A stretch of 37,598 bases of DNA from a virus: the IMG/VR virus record IMGVR_UViG_3300031974_002603, positions 1 through 37,598 of that record, one strand, 5' to 3'. Of the stretch, positions 2,310-34,264 are shown in pieces; the stretch's first letter is position 1, and every line of letters starts with the position of its first letter. Under the pieces are notes generated by a model. The model was not told the DNA's origin, ran no database searches, and saw only the letters and a program-made list of their open reading frames with translations. A program made the position numbers and the translations under genes.

Positions 2310-2504
2310 GTGCCAGTAGCAAACCCCGCCAATGTCAACTGCGTCAAAGTAGTTTCTACTATGGACGATATGGCTTCGGATTTGCAGACATCAATTAGAG
2401 CAACATTAGGTAATAACGATGAACTGCTCGATGTGACAATCGTTAGACAAGACAACGGCAACAAAGTCGTAGTCGTTTATACTTATGAGGATTTGAGTCC
2501 TTGA
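2310..2504 (+). CDS. Small conserved-looking protein in tail operon
   Basis: A 64-residue protein that starts with GTG at 2310, placed 6-7 bases after a GAGGTGA ribosome binding site that overlaps the stop of the tail tube gene. The sequence alternates a helix (MDDMASDLQTSIRATLG) with two strands (LLDVTIVRQDNG and KVVVVYTYEDL). This is a compact alpha-beta fold with no recognised family. The strong ribosome binding site and position between tail tube and chaperone genes support a real tail-module gene. Its role is unknown; a tail-tube accessory or capping protein is possible but not shown. Confidence 0.6.
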   Translation: MPVANPANVNCVKVVSTMDDMASDLQTSIRATLGNNDELLDVTIVRQDNGNKVVVVYTYEDLSP

Positions 2505-2513
2505 GGTGATTAA

Positions 2514-2738
2514 ATGAAGAGAATGAAAGGAACAAAACCGTCAAAGAAAAGCGTTCGATTGGCACAATTGGGTGTTGCAGTCGAAGAACCAGTAGTCGAA
2601 CCAATGGCTGAACCAGTGGTTGAGCCTGTCGAAGAACCACAGGTCGTAGAAGAAAAGCCTGTGAAAAAGCCAAAGGCAAAGAAAAGTAAAGCAAAGAAGA
2701 GTGTGAAGAAAGATGGCGACATTGAAGAAACAGTTTAA
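2514..2738 (+). CDS. Low-complexity Glu/Pro/Val then Lys-rich protein
   Basis: A 74-residue protein beginning at ATG 2514 behind a full-length Shine-Dalgarno (GAGGTGATTAA). It is basic at the N-terminus. It then has an imperfect repeat of EPVVEP/EPMAEP units (residues about 25-45) and a Lys/Ala-rich tract (KPKAKKSKAKKS, about residues 50-64), ending in an acidic patch. Such alternating acidic/basic low complexity indicates a disordered protein. It overlaps the start of the chaperone gene at 2713 by 26 bases. The function is unknown; a tail-assembly or nucleic-acid-binding accessory would fit. Confidence 0.55.
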   Translation: MKRMKGTKPSKKSVRLAQLGVAVEEPVVEPMAEPVVEPVEEPQVVEEKPVKKPKAKKSKAKKSVKKDGDIEETV

Positions 2739-3057
2739 GATTGGAAATAAAGAAATTTGGGTAAGACAAGCAAGCGGCATGGAACGCTTGAAGTTTGAAA
2801 CCATTTTGGCAAAAGTATTCCGAAAATTTAAGCATTTTGGAACAGACCAAACTAAGTGGACGGAAGTTCAGCAAGAAGAGTTCCTTGATGCTTTGGAAGA
2901 AGCAGGTGGTGGAATGACCAACCAACTGTATGAATTAGTCCCCATTTGTGTAATTGATGAAATTGACATTAACATCATTGACCGTGATGAATTGATGGAA
3001 ATTTACAATTTCGTAAGTGGGAATGACGAAGAAGGTGCAGTCCCTTTGGACTCTTGA
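2713..3057 (+). CDS. Tail assembly chaperone, short form (gpG-like)
   Basis: This 114-residue protein sits immediately upstream of the tape measure, where siphoviruses encode the gpG/gpGT tail assembly chaperones that coat the tape measure during tail assembly. It begins with a small beta region (KKQFKIGNKEIWVRQ), followed by helices with an acidic segment. Near its end the frame-0 codons CCT TTG form the slippery heptamer C CCT TTG at 3042-3048, three codons before the TGA stop. The -1 frame is open into the next ORF. The family is inferred from position, size and this recoding signal; chaperone sequences are poorly conserved. Confidence 0.7.
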   Translation: MATLKKQFKIGNKEIWVRQASGMERLKFETILAKVFRKFKHFGTDQTKWTEVQQEEFLDALEEAGGGMTNQLYELVPICVIDEIDINIIDRDELMEIYNFVSGNDEEGAVPLDS

Positions 3058-3335
3058 GCAAGGTAGCCCCTGCCCTTTGTTCATCTTACAAGGGGGTTCT
3101 GCCGAGCGACCTTCTCGAAAAATACACTTGTGAAGGCGGTTGGCAAAAAATGGAATTTGACCTTGCAGTTGTGAATGAAATTCACGACCAAATCAAAGAC
3201 AGTTATGGCGACTCTAAAAAAGATGTCAACGCTATGCAGGCTCGTAAGCAACAAAGACGAGCAAGAAGGCAAGCGGCTACTATCGAAGATGGCGAAGCAC
3301 TACAATTATTAAAGGACGGAGGCTTCATAGCGTAA
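3027..3335 (+). CDS. Tail assembly chaperone T-extension, made by -1 frameshift (gpGT-like)
   Basis: The -1 frame relative to the upstream gene is open from 3027 to the stop at 3333-3335. It has no good start of its own; the first usable codon is TTG 3054, without a well-placed ribosome binding site. Slippage at 3042-3048 would join residue 111 of the short form (a Leu) to GLLSKVAPAL and on through a helix-rich, basic C-terminus (KQQRRARRQAA). In lambda the analogous gpGT fusion is required for tail assembly and its T domain contacts the tail tube protein. The tape measure begins 14 bases later behind a strong GAGGTGATT. Confidence 0.7.
   Translation, partial: RRRCSPFGLLSKVAPALCSSYKGVLPSDLLEKYTCEGGWQKMEFDLAVVNEIHDQIKDSYGDSKKDVNAMQARKQQRRARRQAATIEDGEALQLLKDGGFIA
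3042..3048 (+). other. Predicted -1 ribosomal frameshift site (CCCTTTG)
   Basis: The heptamer fits X XXY YYZ in the reading frame of the upstream gene (C CCT TTG). Slipping back one base re-pairs the tRNAs on CCC and TTT and enters the open -1 frame. It lies in the 31-base overlap between the -1 frame opening at 3027 and the TGA at 3055-3057, as expected for gpG/gpGT recoding. A GAAGGTG element 5-11 bases upstream (3031-3037) could act as an internal Shine-Dalgarno stimulator. Confidence 0.7.
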
Positions 3336-29921: not shown

Positions 29922-29936
29922 AATAATCTTACTTCC

Positions 29937-29951
29937 ATCGTCAGTATATAA
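29937..29951 (-). promoter_or_regulatory. TATA promoter (TTATATACTGACGAT) for the PAC2-like/helicase genes
   Basis: The minus strand reads TTATATACTGACGAT, centred about 27 bases before ATG 29921. It is nearly identical to the RPA operon promoter at 23806-23820. It lies at the edge of the AT-rich region. Confidence 0.7.
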
Positions 29952-29960
29952 TACTTATGT

Positions 29961-29978
29961 AATTAAGTTGAATAATTT
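29961..29978 (+). repeat. Left arm of 18-bp perfect inverted repeat
   Basis: AATTAAGTTGAATAATTT is the exact reverse complement of 30185-30202. The arms are 206 bases apart and bound the AT-rich region. No target-site duplication is seen next to them. Confidence 0.85.
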
Positions 29979-30184
29979 TGTTTGAAGAAAAAAAATTAAA
30001 CGCAATACTGTTCCGCATTTTGCTGAATTAGTTTTTTTCCCTTTAGAGTTTTAAATTAAATAATAAGTAATAGGTATAGTAAGTAGTAGTAAGGTGGTCT
30101 TTTATTTCTAAACCTTATGAAGAAAAAACTTAATTCCCTTGAATCGCTTGCCAGTCCATCGGTTTTATTTTTTCAGTAACAACT

Positions 30185-30202
30185 AAATTATTCAACTTAA
30201 TT
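30185..30202 (-). repeat. Right arm of 18-bp perfect inverted repeat
   Basis: AAATTATTCAACTTAATT is the exact reverse complement of 29961-29978. It overlaps the second copy of the direct repeat AACTTAATTCCC. Confidence 0.85.
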
Positions 30203-30218
30203 CCCAAAGTATTATAAT

Positions 30219-30989
30219 CTAAATTCCAATCCTCCTTCGGTAAAGCAACTGGTCGTATTCAACTGTCAGCATATTGCCCTGTTCCAATTCAAACTTACAT
30301 GAGTCGGCACTGGGATAATACTTCTCGCACTTCTCCAAGATGACACGAATCTCGCCCCTCTTAGCACCTTCACTCCACGATTTTTTGATTGTCCTTGGGT
30401 AATCTACCCCTTCGGTGATTCCGTCGGCAGAACGACCATACATACGCACATAAATGACATTCTTACCCAAGTCAATTAGTTCAGCCGTAGCGTGACCGAT
30501 TCGATACTTGATTGATTGGCGAATAGCCCAACCGTTAGAATCTCTATACGCAAAGAACCCACGCTCTCCTTGTTGTCTCGTGAAGTATTCAATGTAAGAA
30601 CCTACGGTCTCCAATTCAGTCAACAACGCACGACCACTTAGGTTGTGTATTCCTTGCACTATCGGATTGTCCTCGCCAGTATAAAAGATTAGATACTCAT
30701 TACCCTCTTGGTAAGCATCTTTAACGAAGTCGTTAAGCAAAGCCCACATCGAAGGCGTATCTGTCTTGGGTGCAAAGATGTCGTCCTCGAAAGCGTATCG
30801 AGGTAGCCGTTCATTGAAAAGCGTATCAATGAAATGCCACATCATCTTTTTACCAGTCAAGTAATATGTGTTACCGCCCTCTTCAATCTCGATTGATGGA
30901 TTCTGCACGAGAACCCCCTTGTGATTGCGAGAGTATGGTCTTGCTGATATTACTTTCATGTTCTTGGTAGATACGATGTTGGGTTTCAT
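30219..30989 (-). CDS. Unrecognised 256-residue protein
   Basis: ATG 30989 lies behind GGAGGGG and overlaps the upstream winged-helix stop (ATGA). The protein mixes strands and helices: SIEIEEGGNTYYLTGKKMM near 35-52, FVKDAYQEGNEYLIFYTGED near 90-110, a middle helix, NVIYVRMYGRSADG near 180, and strand-rich ends (RVILEKCEKY, MLTVEYDQLLYRRR). No catalytic motif or family is recognised. It is the last gene before the AT-rich gap, in an operon with a DNA-binding protein. Confidence 0.7.
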   Translation of the reverse strand: MKPNIVSTKNMKVISARPYSRNHKGVLVQNPSIEIEEGGNTYYLTGKKMMWHFIDTLFNERLPRYAFEDDIFAPKTDTPSMWALLNDFVKDAYQEGNEYLIFYTGEDNPIVQGIHNLSGRALLTELETVGSYIEYFTRQQGERGFFAYRDSNGWAIRQSIKYRIGHATAELIDLGKNVIYVRMYGRSADGITEGVDYPRTIKKSWSEGAKRGEIRVILEKCEKYYPSADSCKFELEQGNMLTVEYDQLLYRRRIGI

Positions 30990-31255
30990 TCGATACCCCT
31001 CCAAGTATTGTATCTTTGTATGTCAAGTTGCCACACCGCAACGCTTCTGCTTAGAACAGAAGTGTAGCCTGTCGCAGTATCAATCTTGTCAAGCCCGACG
31101 ATACCTGCCAACTTCGACCCAATGGTATTCCTACTCGGCAACCATCGGGAGTTTCTCGGTTCATCAGCCAACTTGTTGTAGATTTCATACGACGACAAGC
31201 CTTCGGGGTGTTGCATCATTAGTTTTATTACTCTTTGTTCAAATATTTTACTCAT
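30986..31255 (-). CDS. Small winged-helix protein, PSxN family (89 residues)
   Basis: ATG 31255 is chosen because GGAGG lies 7 bases upstream; the longer open frame runs through a proline-rich, non-coding-looking leader. Residues 1-30 (IFEQRVIKLMMQHPEGLSSY) form the first helices, followed by LPSRNTIGSKLAGI as the recognition region and a wing of strands (SRSVAVWQLD). It shares the PSxN motif with genes at 24738, 27292 and 27533. It is a probable transcription regulator and may be controlled by its structured leader. Confidence 0.72.
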   Translation of the reverse strand: MSKIFEQRVIKLMMQHPEGLSSYEIYNKLADEPRNSRWLPSRNTIGSKLAGIVGLDKIDTATGYTSVLSRSVAVWQLDIQRYNTWRGIE

Positions 31256-31390
31256 GTTTAGTCCTCCTATTTTTTTGAAAGTGGGTGGGGGCGGGTGTTG
31301 ATTTGTGAGGGGAACACAGACGCACACAGGAGGATATGGAGAAATAATCACGAAACGAACAAAGTGATTTACTTCAACCCCGCCCCCGTT
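31256..31390 (-). promoter_or_regulatory. Structured 5' leader with possible Shine-Dalgarno sequestration
   Basis: On the minus strand the leader starts with GGGGGCGGGGTTG (near 31387). This can pair with CAACACCCGCCCCC (31287-31300), with one bulge. Inside, AATCAC and GTGATT (31364-31369, 31346-31351) form a hairpin. TCCTCCT (about 31329-31335) is complementary to the AGGAGGA ribosome site of the following gene. The arrangement suggests translational control; it is a prediction from pairing only. Confidence 0.45.
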
Positions 31391-31410
31391 ATATCCTGTA
31401 TGCTCGGCAC

Positions 31411-31420
31411 TACTTAAATG
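31411..31420 (-). promoter_or_regulatory. TATA-like box for the leader and winged-helix gene
   Basis: The minus strand reads CATTTAAGTA. A start about 26 bases downstream would put the RNA 5' end near 31388, at the first G of the GC-rich stem. Confidence 0.4.
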
Positions 31421-31421
31421 T

Positions 31422-31745
31422 TTAAGTCCAGTCCTCCTTTGTATTCCCGTCTTTCGATTCTTTAGATGGCTTGTAGACTGTATCTGTGCAATCAATACAC
31501 AGGAAATCATACCTCTTACCATCTTTGGTTTCAAGATAGTGAATCGTCGGCAACAAACTGCCCCGACTCATATCGAAAGTGTAGGGGTCGCCAATCTCGT
31601 ATTCTTTTTTTAGGTCTGCAAGAACACCAGTGCAACCGCACAGCCCACACAATCCCAATGGCTGAGTGTATAGACCCGCAGGTTTCTCGTAGTCGAACTT
31701 GCCCCTAAAAAGTCCAATCGGATTAACGAATGTTATCACTGTCAC
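31422..31745 (-). CDS. Cys-rich small protein (107 residues), zinc ribbon-like
   Basis: The GTG start at 31745 overlaps the upstream TGA (GTGA), with GGTGAT before it. The protein has CGLCGC near residue 33 and CIDC near residue 83, two cysteine clusters about 50 residues apart that could bind zinc. Between them is a small beta region (DPYTFDMSRGSLLPTIHYLE), and the tail is polar. It is the last gene of a run of eight tiny overlapping genes. No family is recognised. Confidence 0.65.
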   Translation of the reverse strand: MTVITFVNPIGLFRGKFDYEKPAGLYTQPLGLCGLCGCTGVLADLKKEYEIGDPYTFDMSRGSLLPTIHYLETKDGKRYDFLCIDCTDTVYKPSKESKDGNTKEDWT

Positions 31746-31882
31746 TTCTTATCACCTATCGCAAAAAGACGCTTTGAACCACAAGCGAGGCATTTGACTT
31801 CCATCGCTTTTCTATTGGTTCTATCGAGTAACAAGGTCGGTCTAAAATCCCTTCCAAGACACTGATGACATTCAAGTGCCAT
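31742..31882 (-). CDS. Zinc ribbon microprotein (46 residues)
   Basis: ATG 31882 has GAGGC just upstream. The protein shows CHQC (residues 5-8) and CLAC (31-34) with a basic spacer (DRTNRKAMEVK), a classical small zinc ribbon, then GSKRLFAIGDKK. Its stop overlaps the next gene's GTG. It is likely a nucleic acid- or protein-binding module; the function is unknown. Confidence 0.7.
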   Translation of the reverse strand: MALECHQCLGRDFRPTLLLDRTNRKAMEVKCLACGSKRLFAIGDKK

Positions 31883-31887
31883 ACGCC

Positions 31888-32022
31888 TCATTCCATCACC
31901 TGCCTAAGCATTAGTTCGTAGTCCTCTTGCCACAAGGCTACAATGATGTCAGCCTTCTCGTCCTCGGTCAATTCGGGAGGTTTGATAACCACCTTACGAA
32001 TGACTTTCTTGTTTGTCTGCAT
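31888..32022 (-). CDS. Microprotein (44 residues), basic strand plus acidic helix
   Basis: ATG 32022 overlaps the upstream stop (ATGA) behind GGAGGGTTGGTG. The first 15 residues are basic and strand-like (KKVIRKVVIKPP); the rest is one acidic amphipathic helix (LTEDEKADIIVALWQEDYEL). There are no cysteines, unlike its neighbours. It fits a small protein-binding element. No family is recognised. Confidence 0.65.
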   Translation of the reverse strand: MQTNKKVIRKVVIKPPELTEDEKADIIVALWQEDYELMLRQVME

Positions 32023-32225
32023 CACCAACCCTCCACTGCAACCTTCTGTTCGTAGATGAGATTATCTACCTTCGGCTTTTTCTTTTGTTTTCTTTTGACC
32101 GTGTTGTTCAACTTGTATGTTTTACCACCATGCTTACCGCATCGGTTGATGCCATAGGCAGTGGTCACTTCTACTTGTTGAAAGCAACCTGCCACCACGC
32201 AATCCTTGACATAGGTTTTTCTCAT
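32022..32225 (-). CDS. Basic Cys-containing small protein (67 residues)
   Basis: ATG 32225 overlaps the upstream TGA (ATGA) behind GGGGGTGAC. Cysteines and histidine lie as CVVAGC, then about 15 residues on CGKH, giving a possible zinc knuckle. A Lys-rich stretch (VKRKQKKKPK) follows, likely nucleic acid-binding. The C-terminus is short and acidic-hydrophobic. The function is unknown. Confidence 0.65.
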   Translation of the reverse strand: MRKTYVKDCVVAGCFQQVEVTTAYGINRCGKHGGKTYKLNNTVKRKQKKKPKVDNLIYEQKVAVEGW

Positions 32226-32311
32226 TCTGTCACCCCCAAGAATTTTCTAATCGCTTCGATTAGTGGGTCTGTCTGTTTTTTCATCTCGTTTATTTTATCT
32301 TGTTCTTTCAT
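32222..32311 (-). CDS. 29-residue microprotein
   Basis: ATG 32311 overlaps the upstream stop (TAATG), with GGAG 9-10 bases before. Its own stop overlaps the next start (ATGA). The sequence is a single amphipathic helix broken by a proline (DKINEMKKQTDP, then LIEAIRKFLGV). The double coupling is the main support for a real gene; it could instead be a translational link peptide. Confidence 0.5.
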   Translation of the reverse strand: MKEQDKINEMKKQTDPLIEAIRKFLGVTE

Positions 32312-32520
32312 TACAATCTACTCCATCGTATTTCGTTACGCATGGCAGTCTCACCTGCGTATTCCCTTTTACATTCCATGCAAAGTCCGTCCGTGTCCTC
32401 GAAATCAAGCCCCTCACACGAAGGGCATTCGTCCATGTCTGCGTAGCACAGGACACAGGTTGTGTCGTGCTTCTTATCGTCATGGCATTCGCAACCACAG
32501 TCTTGCTTAGGGTGGCTCAT
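32311..32520 (-). CDS. Cys-rich multi-zinc protein (69 residues)
   Basis: ATG 32520 overlaps the stop of the previous gene (ATGA). The protein has nine cysteines: CGCEC with a following His, then CVLC, CPSC and CMEC. That is enough for two zinc sites in a rubredoxin/ribbon-like fold. The loop between CPSC and CMEC (EGLDFEDTDGL) is acidic. The C-terminus is basic (RNEIRWSR). It is probably a protein-interaction or nucleic acid-binding factor with no recognised family. Confidence 0.7.
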   Translation of the reverse strand: MSHPKQDCGCECHDDKKHDTTCVLCYADMDECPSCEGLDFEDTDGLCMECKREYAGETAMRNEIRWSRL

Positions 32521-32621
32521 TGTTGACCACACCCCAAGCAGTAAATGACTACTCTCGGTGTCAAACAGTGCGGTGAAAGAGCAACCTTACAGTTACATTC
32601 TTTGCATCTAATTGGTATCAT
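32517..32621 (-). CDS. Zinc ribbon microprotein (34 residues)
   Basis: ATG 32621 lies inside the end of the previous gene with GGAGATG upstream. The protein reads CKECNC at residues 6-11 and CLGC at 28-31, with one further Cys at 19 (SPHCLTPRVVIYC between). This would form a minimal zinc ribbon. Its stop overlaps the next gene's start by ATGA. It is among the smallest genes here; paired cysteines and coupling support it. Confidence 0.62.
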   Translation of the reverse strand: MIPIRCKECNCKVALSPHCLTPRVVIYCLGCGQQ

Positions 32622-32736
32622 CTGTCACATCTCCTGTCTTACAATCGCAGGTTTTGAAAACCCTTGCGAATCCGTTTTCAAAGGTGACTATGATTGGGTC
32701 ATAGCACACTGGACATTCTACTATTTTTTTACTCAT
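32608..32736 (-). CDS. Zinc ribbon microprotein (42 residues)
   Basis: ATG 32736 lies behind AGGAGGATT. The protein has CPVC (residues 8-11) and CDC (30-32), separated by a strand pair (IIVTFENGFARVF), followed by a polar tail. It heads the run of eight small genes reading down to 31422. It is likely a zinc-binding module of unknown role. Confidence 0.66.
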   Translation of the reverse strand: MSKKIVECPVCYDPIIVTFENGFARVFKTCDCKTGDVTDDTN

Positions 32737-33022: not shown

Positions 33023-33337
33023 TCATCGGGCGTTCAAGTCCTTCAATCGAACATGAATCACGCAGTCGCCCTTGAGAGCAATCGCAGTGTCATATTGATA
33101 CATGAAGGTCTTGGCAATCCATTCATTGTAGTCCTCCGAACTATCGTCCTGTGTCTTTGTGTAGATTCTAATGTCTGTTATGTCCTCAGTCTCAATTGGG
33201 TATTCTTCTACTACCTGTGCGTCGAGCATCTCGCAAACCTTGGATATGATTTTGTCTTGTGACCAATCGAATATCATGTGTTGCTCGGCATACTTAGATG
33301 CCATCGGCTGAAACACGAGAAATTCTTGACTACTCAT
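33023..33337 (-). CDS. Unrecognised 104-residue protein
   Basis: ATG 33337 lies behind GGGGGATTT and overlaps the end of the upstream gene by 8 bases. The product is acidic in the middle (DAQVVEEYPIETEDITDIRI) with strands at the end (DCVIHVRLKDL) and helices between (DKIISKVCEMLD; EWIAKTFMYQYD). No motif or family is recognised. It is the last gene of its small operon. Confidence 0.65.
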   Translation of the reverse strand: MSSQEFLVFQPMASKYAEQHMIFDWSQDKIISKVCEMLDAQVVEEYPIETEDITDIRIYTKTQDDSSEDYNEWIAKTFMYQYDTAIALKGDCVIHVRLKDLNAR

Positions 33338-34007
33338 CGAGCAAATCCCCCACCCAGTCGTCCCAGTCATCAGCAGGCTGAACCTCCACCGTTATTGAAC
33401 CCACGACATCTTCCATGAATACTTGTCTCGCAGTGCGAGTCTCGGTGACTTGTGGTTCACTGCCCTTGACATATCCCCAACGCCACCATGACGGTGCGAA
33501 TGTGCCTCGTTCCCATGTAGCGAATCGTGATTTGTCACGAATGTAGAATTCTCTATATGCGGTCACGGTGTCAATGCTCTCATCGAGCAGGTCGAGGTTC
33601 TCACCTTTGCTTTGGTTCAAGGCACGAACAAACGGTGTCATGCCACAACCGACATCTTCCATGTAGATTGAAGCCAAGTCAAGCATCTGCATGAGTGGTT
33701 TCTCGCAACCATGCGTTGTCTTGTCGTATCGCTTCTTGTATTCTTGTAGAATCGCAATAGCGTGACTCCATAGCCATGCAAAGTTCTCGGTTGATTCTGC
33801 CGCCCAAATCGAACAGGGGTGATTCGGATAAGCACCCTTGTAGTGAGTCCCCTTTTGTGTGAGGGGCATCTCATCGGACGGGCAACCGTTCTTTAGCAAC
33901 GCACCCGCAAGCATCTGTGTTGATTCGACAAGCATCTTAGAGCAGTGCTGGTCTGCCAACATTCGAGCCGCACGAATCGGGTTTTGGTCAAGGACGAAAA
34001 TGTTCAT
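33330..34007 (-). CDS. Conserved tailed-virus protein (MNIFVLD family)
   Basis: The N-terminus MNIFVLDQNPIRAARMLADQ, then HCSKMLVESTQMLAGAL, followed by YKGAYPNHPCSIWAAES and WLWSHAIAILQEYKKRY, is a pattern common in large tailed-phage genomes. Databases sometimes label such proteins as related to pyrimidine dimer DNA glycosylase; the activity is not established. Invariant-looking His and Cys residues (DQH, NHPC) could be catalytic or metal-binding. The C-terminal 60 residues are acidic. ATG 34007 is coupled by ATGA to the upstream gene. Confidence 0.7.
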   Translation of the reverse strand: MNIFVLDQNPIRAARMLADQHCSKMLVESTQMLAGALLKNGCPSDEMPLTQKGTHYKGAYPNHPCSIWAAESTENFAWLWSHAIAILQEYKKRYDKTTHGCEKPLMQMLDLASIYMEDVGCGMTPFVRALNQSKGENLDLLDESIDTVTAYREFYIRDKSRFATWERGTFAPSWWRWGYVKGSEPQVTETRTARQVFMEDVVGSITVEVQPADDWDDWVGDLLDE

Positions 34008-34264
34008 TGTTTCGCCTCCTTGATTTCAGTCTTGATTCGGTTCGCCTCTTGCATGAGGTGGCGGTATCGCTTCGGCATGGAACTGTTGGGTGGTGCTTTG
34101 CGTCCAATCCACCAGTATGCTTCTGCCAGTAGAGAACGCAGGTAGCGAATCTCCGTGAGCAGTTGCTCGTCCACTCCGTCATCGAGTGCCTCGTGCAAGG
34201 CATCAATGTCCTCTTGTGTCATCGGTTCGTATATTCCTTGTAGGTATTCTTTGTAGGTTTTCAT
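34004..34264 (-). CDS. Small helical protein (86 residues)
   Basis: ATG 34264 lies behind GAGGGAT, with a TATA box about 38 bases upstream. The sequence is mostly helical: MTQEDIDALHEALDDGVDEQ, then LLTEIRYLRSLLAEAYWWIG and a basic C-terminal helix (YRHLMQEANRIKTEIKEAK). Such helices suggest an oligomer or adaptor. It overlaps the MNIFVLD-family gene by ATGA. No family is recognised. Confidence 0.65.
   Translation of the reverse strand: MKTYKEYLQGIYEPMTQEDIDALHEALDDGVDEQLLTEIRYLRSLLAEAYWWIGRKAPPNSSMPKRYRHLMQEANRIKTEIKEAKQ

Follow-up and report, generated by a model that had tools for sequence, protein, structure and literature searches.

A fast-turnover string of zinc-type microprotein genes beside a constant four-cysteine gene and a candidate leader RNA in a marine tailed virus

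We have found that eight minus-strand open reading frames, A to H, at 31422-32736 of a 37,598-nt stretch of viral DNA (the window) are genuine genes, and that they form a fast-turnover set of zinc-type microproteins rather than a fixed complex, since related viruses carry other, mostly unrelated microproteins with paired cysteines and only H is constant. A gene string of this kind has already been described in archaeal tailed viruses; the part worth following is the leader RNA beside the constant four-Cys gene.

The explanation we favour, and consider somewhat better than evenly probable, is that the string encodes hypervariable, individually acting zinc-type adaptors or regulators, with H retained through a tie to the virus's own expression programme. 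A long run of co-directional genes on the replication arm of the virus, probably polycistronic, has the string at its 3' end; we infer co-transcription of the string and the timing of its expression. The products, with their paired cysteines, are probably stabilised by zinc, and each would act as a solo small adaptor or regulator whose target could be nucleic acid or a host protein, to be won and dropped rapidly as hosts change. The gene order and tiling would then reflect translational coupling and not subunit stoichiometry. H would be the exception, a retained four-Cys protein encoded directly before the promoter and structured leader of a winged-helix gene. Judging by analogues in haloviruses and haloarchaea, individual adaptor or regulatory function is most likely.

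The virus and its tiny-gene string

The window covers part of the genome of a marine tailed virus. Its minus strand encodes a DNA polymerase B (PolB), an RFC-like AAA clamp-loader protein, an ERCC4-HHH nuclease and a PD-(D/E)XK nuclease (Pfam); the PolB, RFC-like and ERCC4 genes suggest that the host is probably archaeal, and the longest-covering matches of PolB are to haloarchaeal tailed viruses, at ~23% identity. As a marker we used another minus-strand product, a protein of 439 aa in which inspection shows a Walker-A-like motif (GxxGxGKS); a Pfam scan did not recognise it, and "MCM-like" is a convenience label only. Its profile retrieved 27 IMG/VR loci, most of them 62-79% identical to the marker, and a winged-helix profile search yielded no contig beyond this set. 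The contig L002 matches the window at 99.96% identity over 19.8 kb, and nothing but this near-identical contig was returned when IMG/VR was scanned singly with H, C, E or the Pyr_excise protein. Profiles of the ATPase and of A found no relative in 84,980 bacterial and archaeal genomes, and hence neither a provirus nor a host was found; none of four proteins (the ATPase, a structural protein and two replication proteins) had a tblastn match among 50,697 isolate phage records.

The initial annotation described eight consecutive minus-strand genes joined mostly by overlaps, and both the genes, at the lengths first given, and the overlaps are present (Table 1). The longest chain of adjoining minus-strand ORFs covers 1,315 of 1,330 nt, a length that none of 500 dinucleotide shuffles equals (mean 254 nt, maximum 709 nt), and the opposite strand holds a single 381-nt ORF across the region. 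A and B overlap by 14 nt, and the joins that follow are ATGA (B/C), TAATG (C/D), ATGA (D/E) and TGATG (E/F); F and G are separated by 5 nt or joined by ATGA, depending on the start of G (the start at 31891 restores the overlap), and G and H are joined by GTGA. Intergenic gaps from 37597 to 31422 are all <60 nt. A simple gene caller built for this study, based on codon usage and SD sequences, finds all eight genes; B, C, G and H escaped a version of it in which Cys codons carried a penalty.

Paired cysteines, claimed from the outset for six of the products, are indeed found in A, B, C, E, G and H, while D and F lack Cys. Against Pfam, PHROG and PADLOC the eight proteins gave sub-threshold matches only, among them weak Pfam zinc-ribbon matches for G and a weak match of C to PHROG 16351 (E 0.014), so that no family in these three collections lends at-threshold support to zinc binding. 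When the small genes of the relatives were clustered, B matched no family, F had no significant match, and the best matches of D (fam33, E 0.008; fam10, E 0.028) were not significant. A conserved set of metal ligands is present, with four Cys invariant both in the 18 aligned H sequences, where they are the sole invariant residues, and in the five aligned sequences of A, and the Cys-paired proteins of the string probably bind zinc.

Table 1. Positions of the string genes, the winged-helix gene and the elements of its leader in the window
Feature	Position	Strand	Description
Gene A	32608..32736	(-)	42 aa; CxxC...CxC, zinc-ribbon-like microprotein
Gene B	32517..32621	(-)	34 aa; CxxC(xC)...CxxC; found in the window and near-identical contig L002 only (tblastn)
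Gene C	32311..32520	(-)	69 aa; nine Cys, several CxxC; window and L002 only (IMG/VR scan)
Gene D	32222..32311	(-)	29 aa; no Cys
Gene E	32022..32225	(-)	67 aa; C-x4-C...C-x2-H; C-terminal half basic; window and L002 only
Gene F	31888..32022	(-)	44 aa; no Cys
Gene G	31742..31891	(-)	49 aa, or 46 aa with start at 31882; CxxC...CxxC, zinc-ribbon-like
Gene H	31422..31745	(-)	107 aa; CxxC-x46-CxxC; final gene of the string, before the leader
Promoter-like motif TTTAAGTAGTGCCG	31405..31418	(-)	implies a start site near the P1 stem
Leader of winged-helix gene	31256..31421	(-)	166 nt between H and the winged-helix gene
P1	31374-31387 with 31287-31301	(-)	long stem in leader
P2	31364-31369 with 31346-31351	(-)	local hairpin in leader
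P3	31328-31334 with 31262-31268	(-)	anti-SD to SD pairing in leader
Winged-helix gene	30986..31255	(-)	89 aa; in all relatives, 36-58% identity (alignment)

Turnover and selection among relatives

In 19 genomes, the window included, the winged-helix gene is preceded by a string of tiny genes, joined mostly by 4-nt or 1-nt overlaps. Its content differs from one genome to the next. B to G were found in no relative but L002, both by family clustering across the 19 genomes and, for C and E, by the IMG/VR scans. A has homologues in seven relatives (a family of eight members), where its position varies, and H is intact in 18 of the 19 genomes, the window among them, adjoining the leader of the winged-helix gene in each. 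The set is not conserved in related contigs, H alone being fixed, and the suggestion in the initial annotation that the products might be subunits of one complex is not supported.

What recurs is the type of protein. In the same 2.5 kb the relatives carry one to four small genes with at least two Cys pairs, mostly unrelated to those of the window, which has five. Such genes make up 46 of the 144 small genes in this 2.5-kb stretch before the winged-helix gene, as against 54 of 321 in the rest of these loci (odds ratio 2.3, p = 4e-4, the genes of related genomes not being independent). Selection could be assessed for A, H and the testable microproteins of the relatives; B to G have no diverged homologue, their other copy being 99.96% identical. 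Pooled pN/pS is 0.44 for A, 0.33 for H and 0.19-0.44 over the set as a whole, and by this measure these genes are under purifying selection. Reading frames broken between intact flanking genes, which would speak against genuine genes, occur in one of the 19 genomes: at 7400-7830 of contig L024, the only relative with a broken H, the H reading is split over two frames, the leader is absent, and the ATG of the winged-helix gene overlaps the stop upstream.

Two other readings of the string concern its coding status and its unity, and we hold both to be very improbable. One is that most of the frames lying between A and H are decayed or arose by chance in a non-coding or degenerating stretch, as the want of homologues for B to G and the very short length of some of them (29 and 34 aa) might suggest; against this stand the gap-free tiling with overlapping start and stop codons, unequalled in the shuffles, and the observation that the same region is filled with genes in every relative, with purifying selection wherever it can be tested. 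The other, that the eight proteins are subunits of a single zinc-rich complex, would account for the tight translational coupling and the consecutive order, but B to G were found in none of the other 18 genomes, which keep the flanking genes, and A is found in only eight genomes, at differing places. We rejected an eight-subunit complex because the set is not conserved. It is also possible, though in our judgement unlikely, that each genome carries its own early host-takeover or anti-defence set and that an arms race with host immunity drives the turnover. The genes resemble those of anti-defence islands in their rapid turnover, small size and accessory position; however, PADLOC returned no match, no known anti-defence gene lies nearby, and the enrichment is specific to Cys pairs, while the Cys-free tiny genes of the region turn over fast as well.

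Gene H and the leader of the winged-helix gene

An AlphaFold2 model of H (pLDDT 67) comprises a knuckle, strands and a C-terminal helix, the elements being strand 24-32, Cys33/36, strands 39-42, 67-72 and 78-83, and helix 84-91, with the second CxxC in the first turn of the helix. Foldseek found no significant match for the model (E above 0.9), and VIA gave weak matches to ribosomal L24e proteins (Z 2.0-2.3 over 42-44 residues). The order of the elements is compatible with a treble clef and the model confidence is moderate; the predicted fold may be treble-clef-like. The winged-helix protein is modelled with higher confidence (pLDDT 85) and has winged-helix matches in VIA with Z up to 8.2. Nothing among the PDB sequences matched a profile of H or of the winged-helix family. 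In Foldseek the best match for the winged-helix model is 2od5 (E 3.3e-3, probability 1.00), a putative nucleic-acid-binding protein from an uncultured marine organism. As H always directly precedes a promoter and a structured leader, we tie its role to the virus's own expression programme, which, though a guess, is the most economical assignment.

Apart from the leader, the replication arm has a single gap longer than 153 nt. We read the TTTAAGTAGTGCCG motif within the leader as a promoter because it recurs upstream of other genes in the related viruses, and in seven sequence clades a promoter-like motif of the TTAWATAGTGSCG type lies 24-32 nt upstream of P1. The order of elements in the seven clades is motif, 5' arm of P1, P2, tail-complementary segment, 3' arm of P1, SD tail and ATG. 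Because MAFFT mis-aligns the leader across clades, the helices were tested by arm pairing, shuffles and cross-pairing. With the P1 arms set by eye, the automatic arm finder having over-extended them, the own partner of an arm was the most stable in its column for six of the seven clade representatives.

The pairing of the loop with the tail, P3, was significant against shuffled loops (p < 0.05) in 12 of 17 genomes, and over the seven clades Fisher's method, taking the median p for clades with several genomes, gave p = 2.6e-6, a value uncorrected for the leader having been noticed before the test. A control with reversed tails gave p = 0.0012 (Wilcoxon, 13 genomes). The SD is part of the helix in clades I, II, III, V and VII; in clade IV (L004, L005, L008 and L041) P3 lies upstream of the SD, which is left uncovered, and in L006 and L023 P3 is not significant. 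The claim of a pseudoknot rests on the relatives, since P3 of the window itself has only 7 bp (p = 0.034) and fails the reversed-tail control. Rfam searches gave no match over the whole window and, for the leader alone at a permissive threshold of E 10, nothing but a chance miRNA match. These patterns make the leader a candidate pseudoknot RNA, resembling a translational switch, in which the loop would pair with the SD in most relatives. We note that the inverted repeat could also act at the level of DNA, as an origin or terminator, but the promoter-like motif just upstream and the complementarity to the SD make a role in RNA more likely.

We put forward tentatively, as a possibility well short of even, that the conserved unit is not the string but this junction, in which the retained H is followed by a viral promoter and by an H-type pseudoknot leader of 120-170 nt masking the SD of the winged-helix gene. 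If so, the junction would be a translational switch of a new class, belonging to archaeal tailed viruses and set perhaps by H or by the winged-helix protein itself. Such a ligand would make the end of the string and the leader a feedback switch on the next operon, and the constant adjacency of H and leader, the winged-helix product with its nucleic-acid-binding type of fold, and the SD pairing in most clades are all consistent with this; we nevertheless think it rather improbable that either protein is the ligand, given that the link is one of adjacency and that L024, with no leader and a split H, still keeps the downstream gene.

Comparison with known systems

The initial annotation could name no system that the string matches, but small CxxC proteins are known from haloviruses of the HF1 group (PMC7230728, PMC8707807). 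The members of this group have 12-14 CxxC proteins <100 aa each (14 of 23 in Serpecor1, 12 of 21 in Hardycor2), and the assembly region is free of them (PMC7230728); those of HF2 are encoded in the first-transcribed part of the genome and have been named as candidate regulators of viral promoters in intergenic repeats (PMC8707807). The window virus is likewise a tailed virus with a family B DNA polymerase and many CxxC proteins <100 aa, and it resembles HF1, HF2, Serpecor1 and Hardycor2 in having these microproteins outside the virion assembly genes. It has seven small genes with at least two CxxC and 18 with at least two C-x1-5-C, as called on one strand, where the caller over-calls, and the small ORFs on the plus strand at 2310-3335 (64, 74, 114 and 93 aa), which lie tiled between large genes, have no CxxC, in a window that may hold only part of the assembly region. 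The differences are that the contigs are marine, that no sequence relation goes beyond that of PolB, and that the string is gap-free and ends at a conserved four-Cys gene adjoining a structured leader. The virus works like the HF1 group; we do not file it there because the four other proteins were unmatched by tblastn and PolB is only ~23% identical. The CxxC-microprotein habit of haloviruses thus extends to an uncultured marine virus group absent from isolate databases, in which the string turns over rapidly around one fixed member. H and the adjoining leader RNA offer two concrete, testable targets in a region that gene callers would mostly leave hypothetical.

Cellular counterparts are found in Haloferax volcanii, where deletions of zinc-finger microproteins give varied phenotypes, and a related protein, Brz of Halobacterium salinarum, activates transcription (PMC6562870). 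Brz and the C(P)XCG proteins of H. volcanii are also single-domain, four-Cys, archaeal and mostly <100 aa, but they are cellular and not viral, and the window proteins mostly have CxxC without the conserved P and G.

SAM-II and preQ1-II are H-type pseudoknot riboswitches that sequester the SD, with the arm order a-b-a'-b' and the SD in b'. The viral leader would share this order, with the SD in b', but it has no Rfam match, and its P1 arms and loop sequences vary between clades, which argues against a single conserved ligand pocket. A viral precedent is the leader of the T4 gene 32 mRNA, known for autogenous repression by gp32 (PMC535899), where a pseudoknot can control translation of a nucleic-acid-binding protein; the present leader is not homologous and would differ in that its pseudoknot includes the SD itself in most clades.

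The minus-strand gene at 33330-34007 encodes a member of the Pfam family of pyrimidine dimer DNA glycosylases (PF03013, E 1.3e-6), which is kept in 18 of the 19 genomes at positions that shift within the microprotein region. An 86-aa Cys-free protein with no Pfam match, encoded at 34004-34264, belongs to a family that is likewise present in 18 of the 19. Finally, a 297-nt AT-rich intergenic stretch at 29922-30218, conserved in the relatives, precedes the genes for a 267-aa protein and the ATPase; it contains repeats of the GGAATTAAGTT / AACTTAATTC type, with the motif TATATACTGACG at its end, and is a candidate replication origin.
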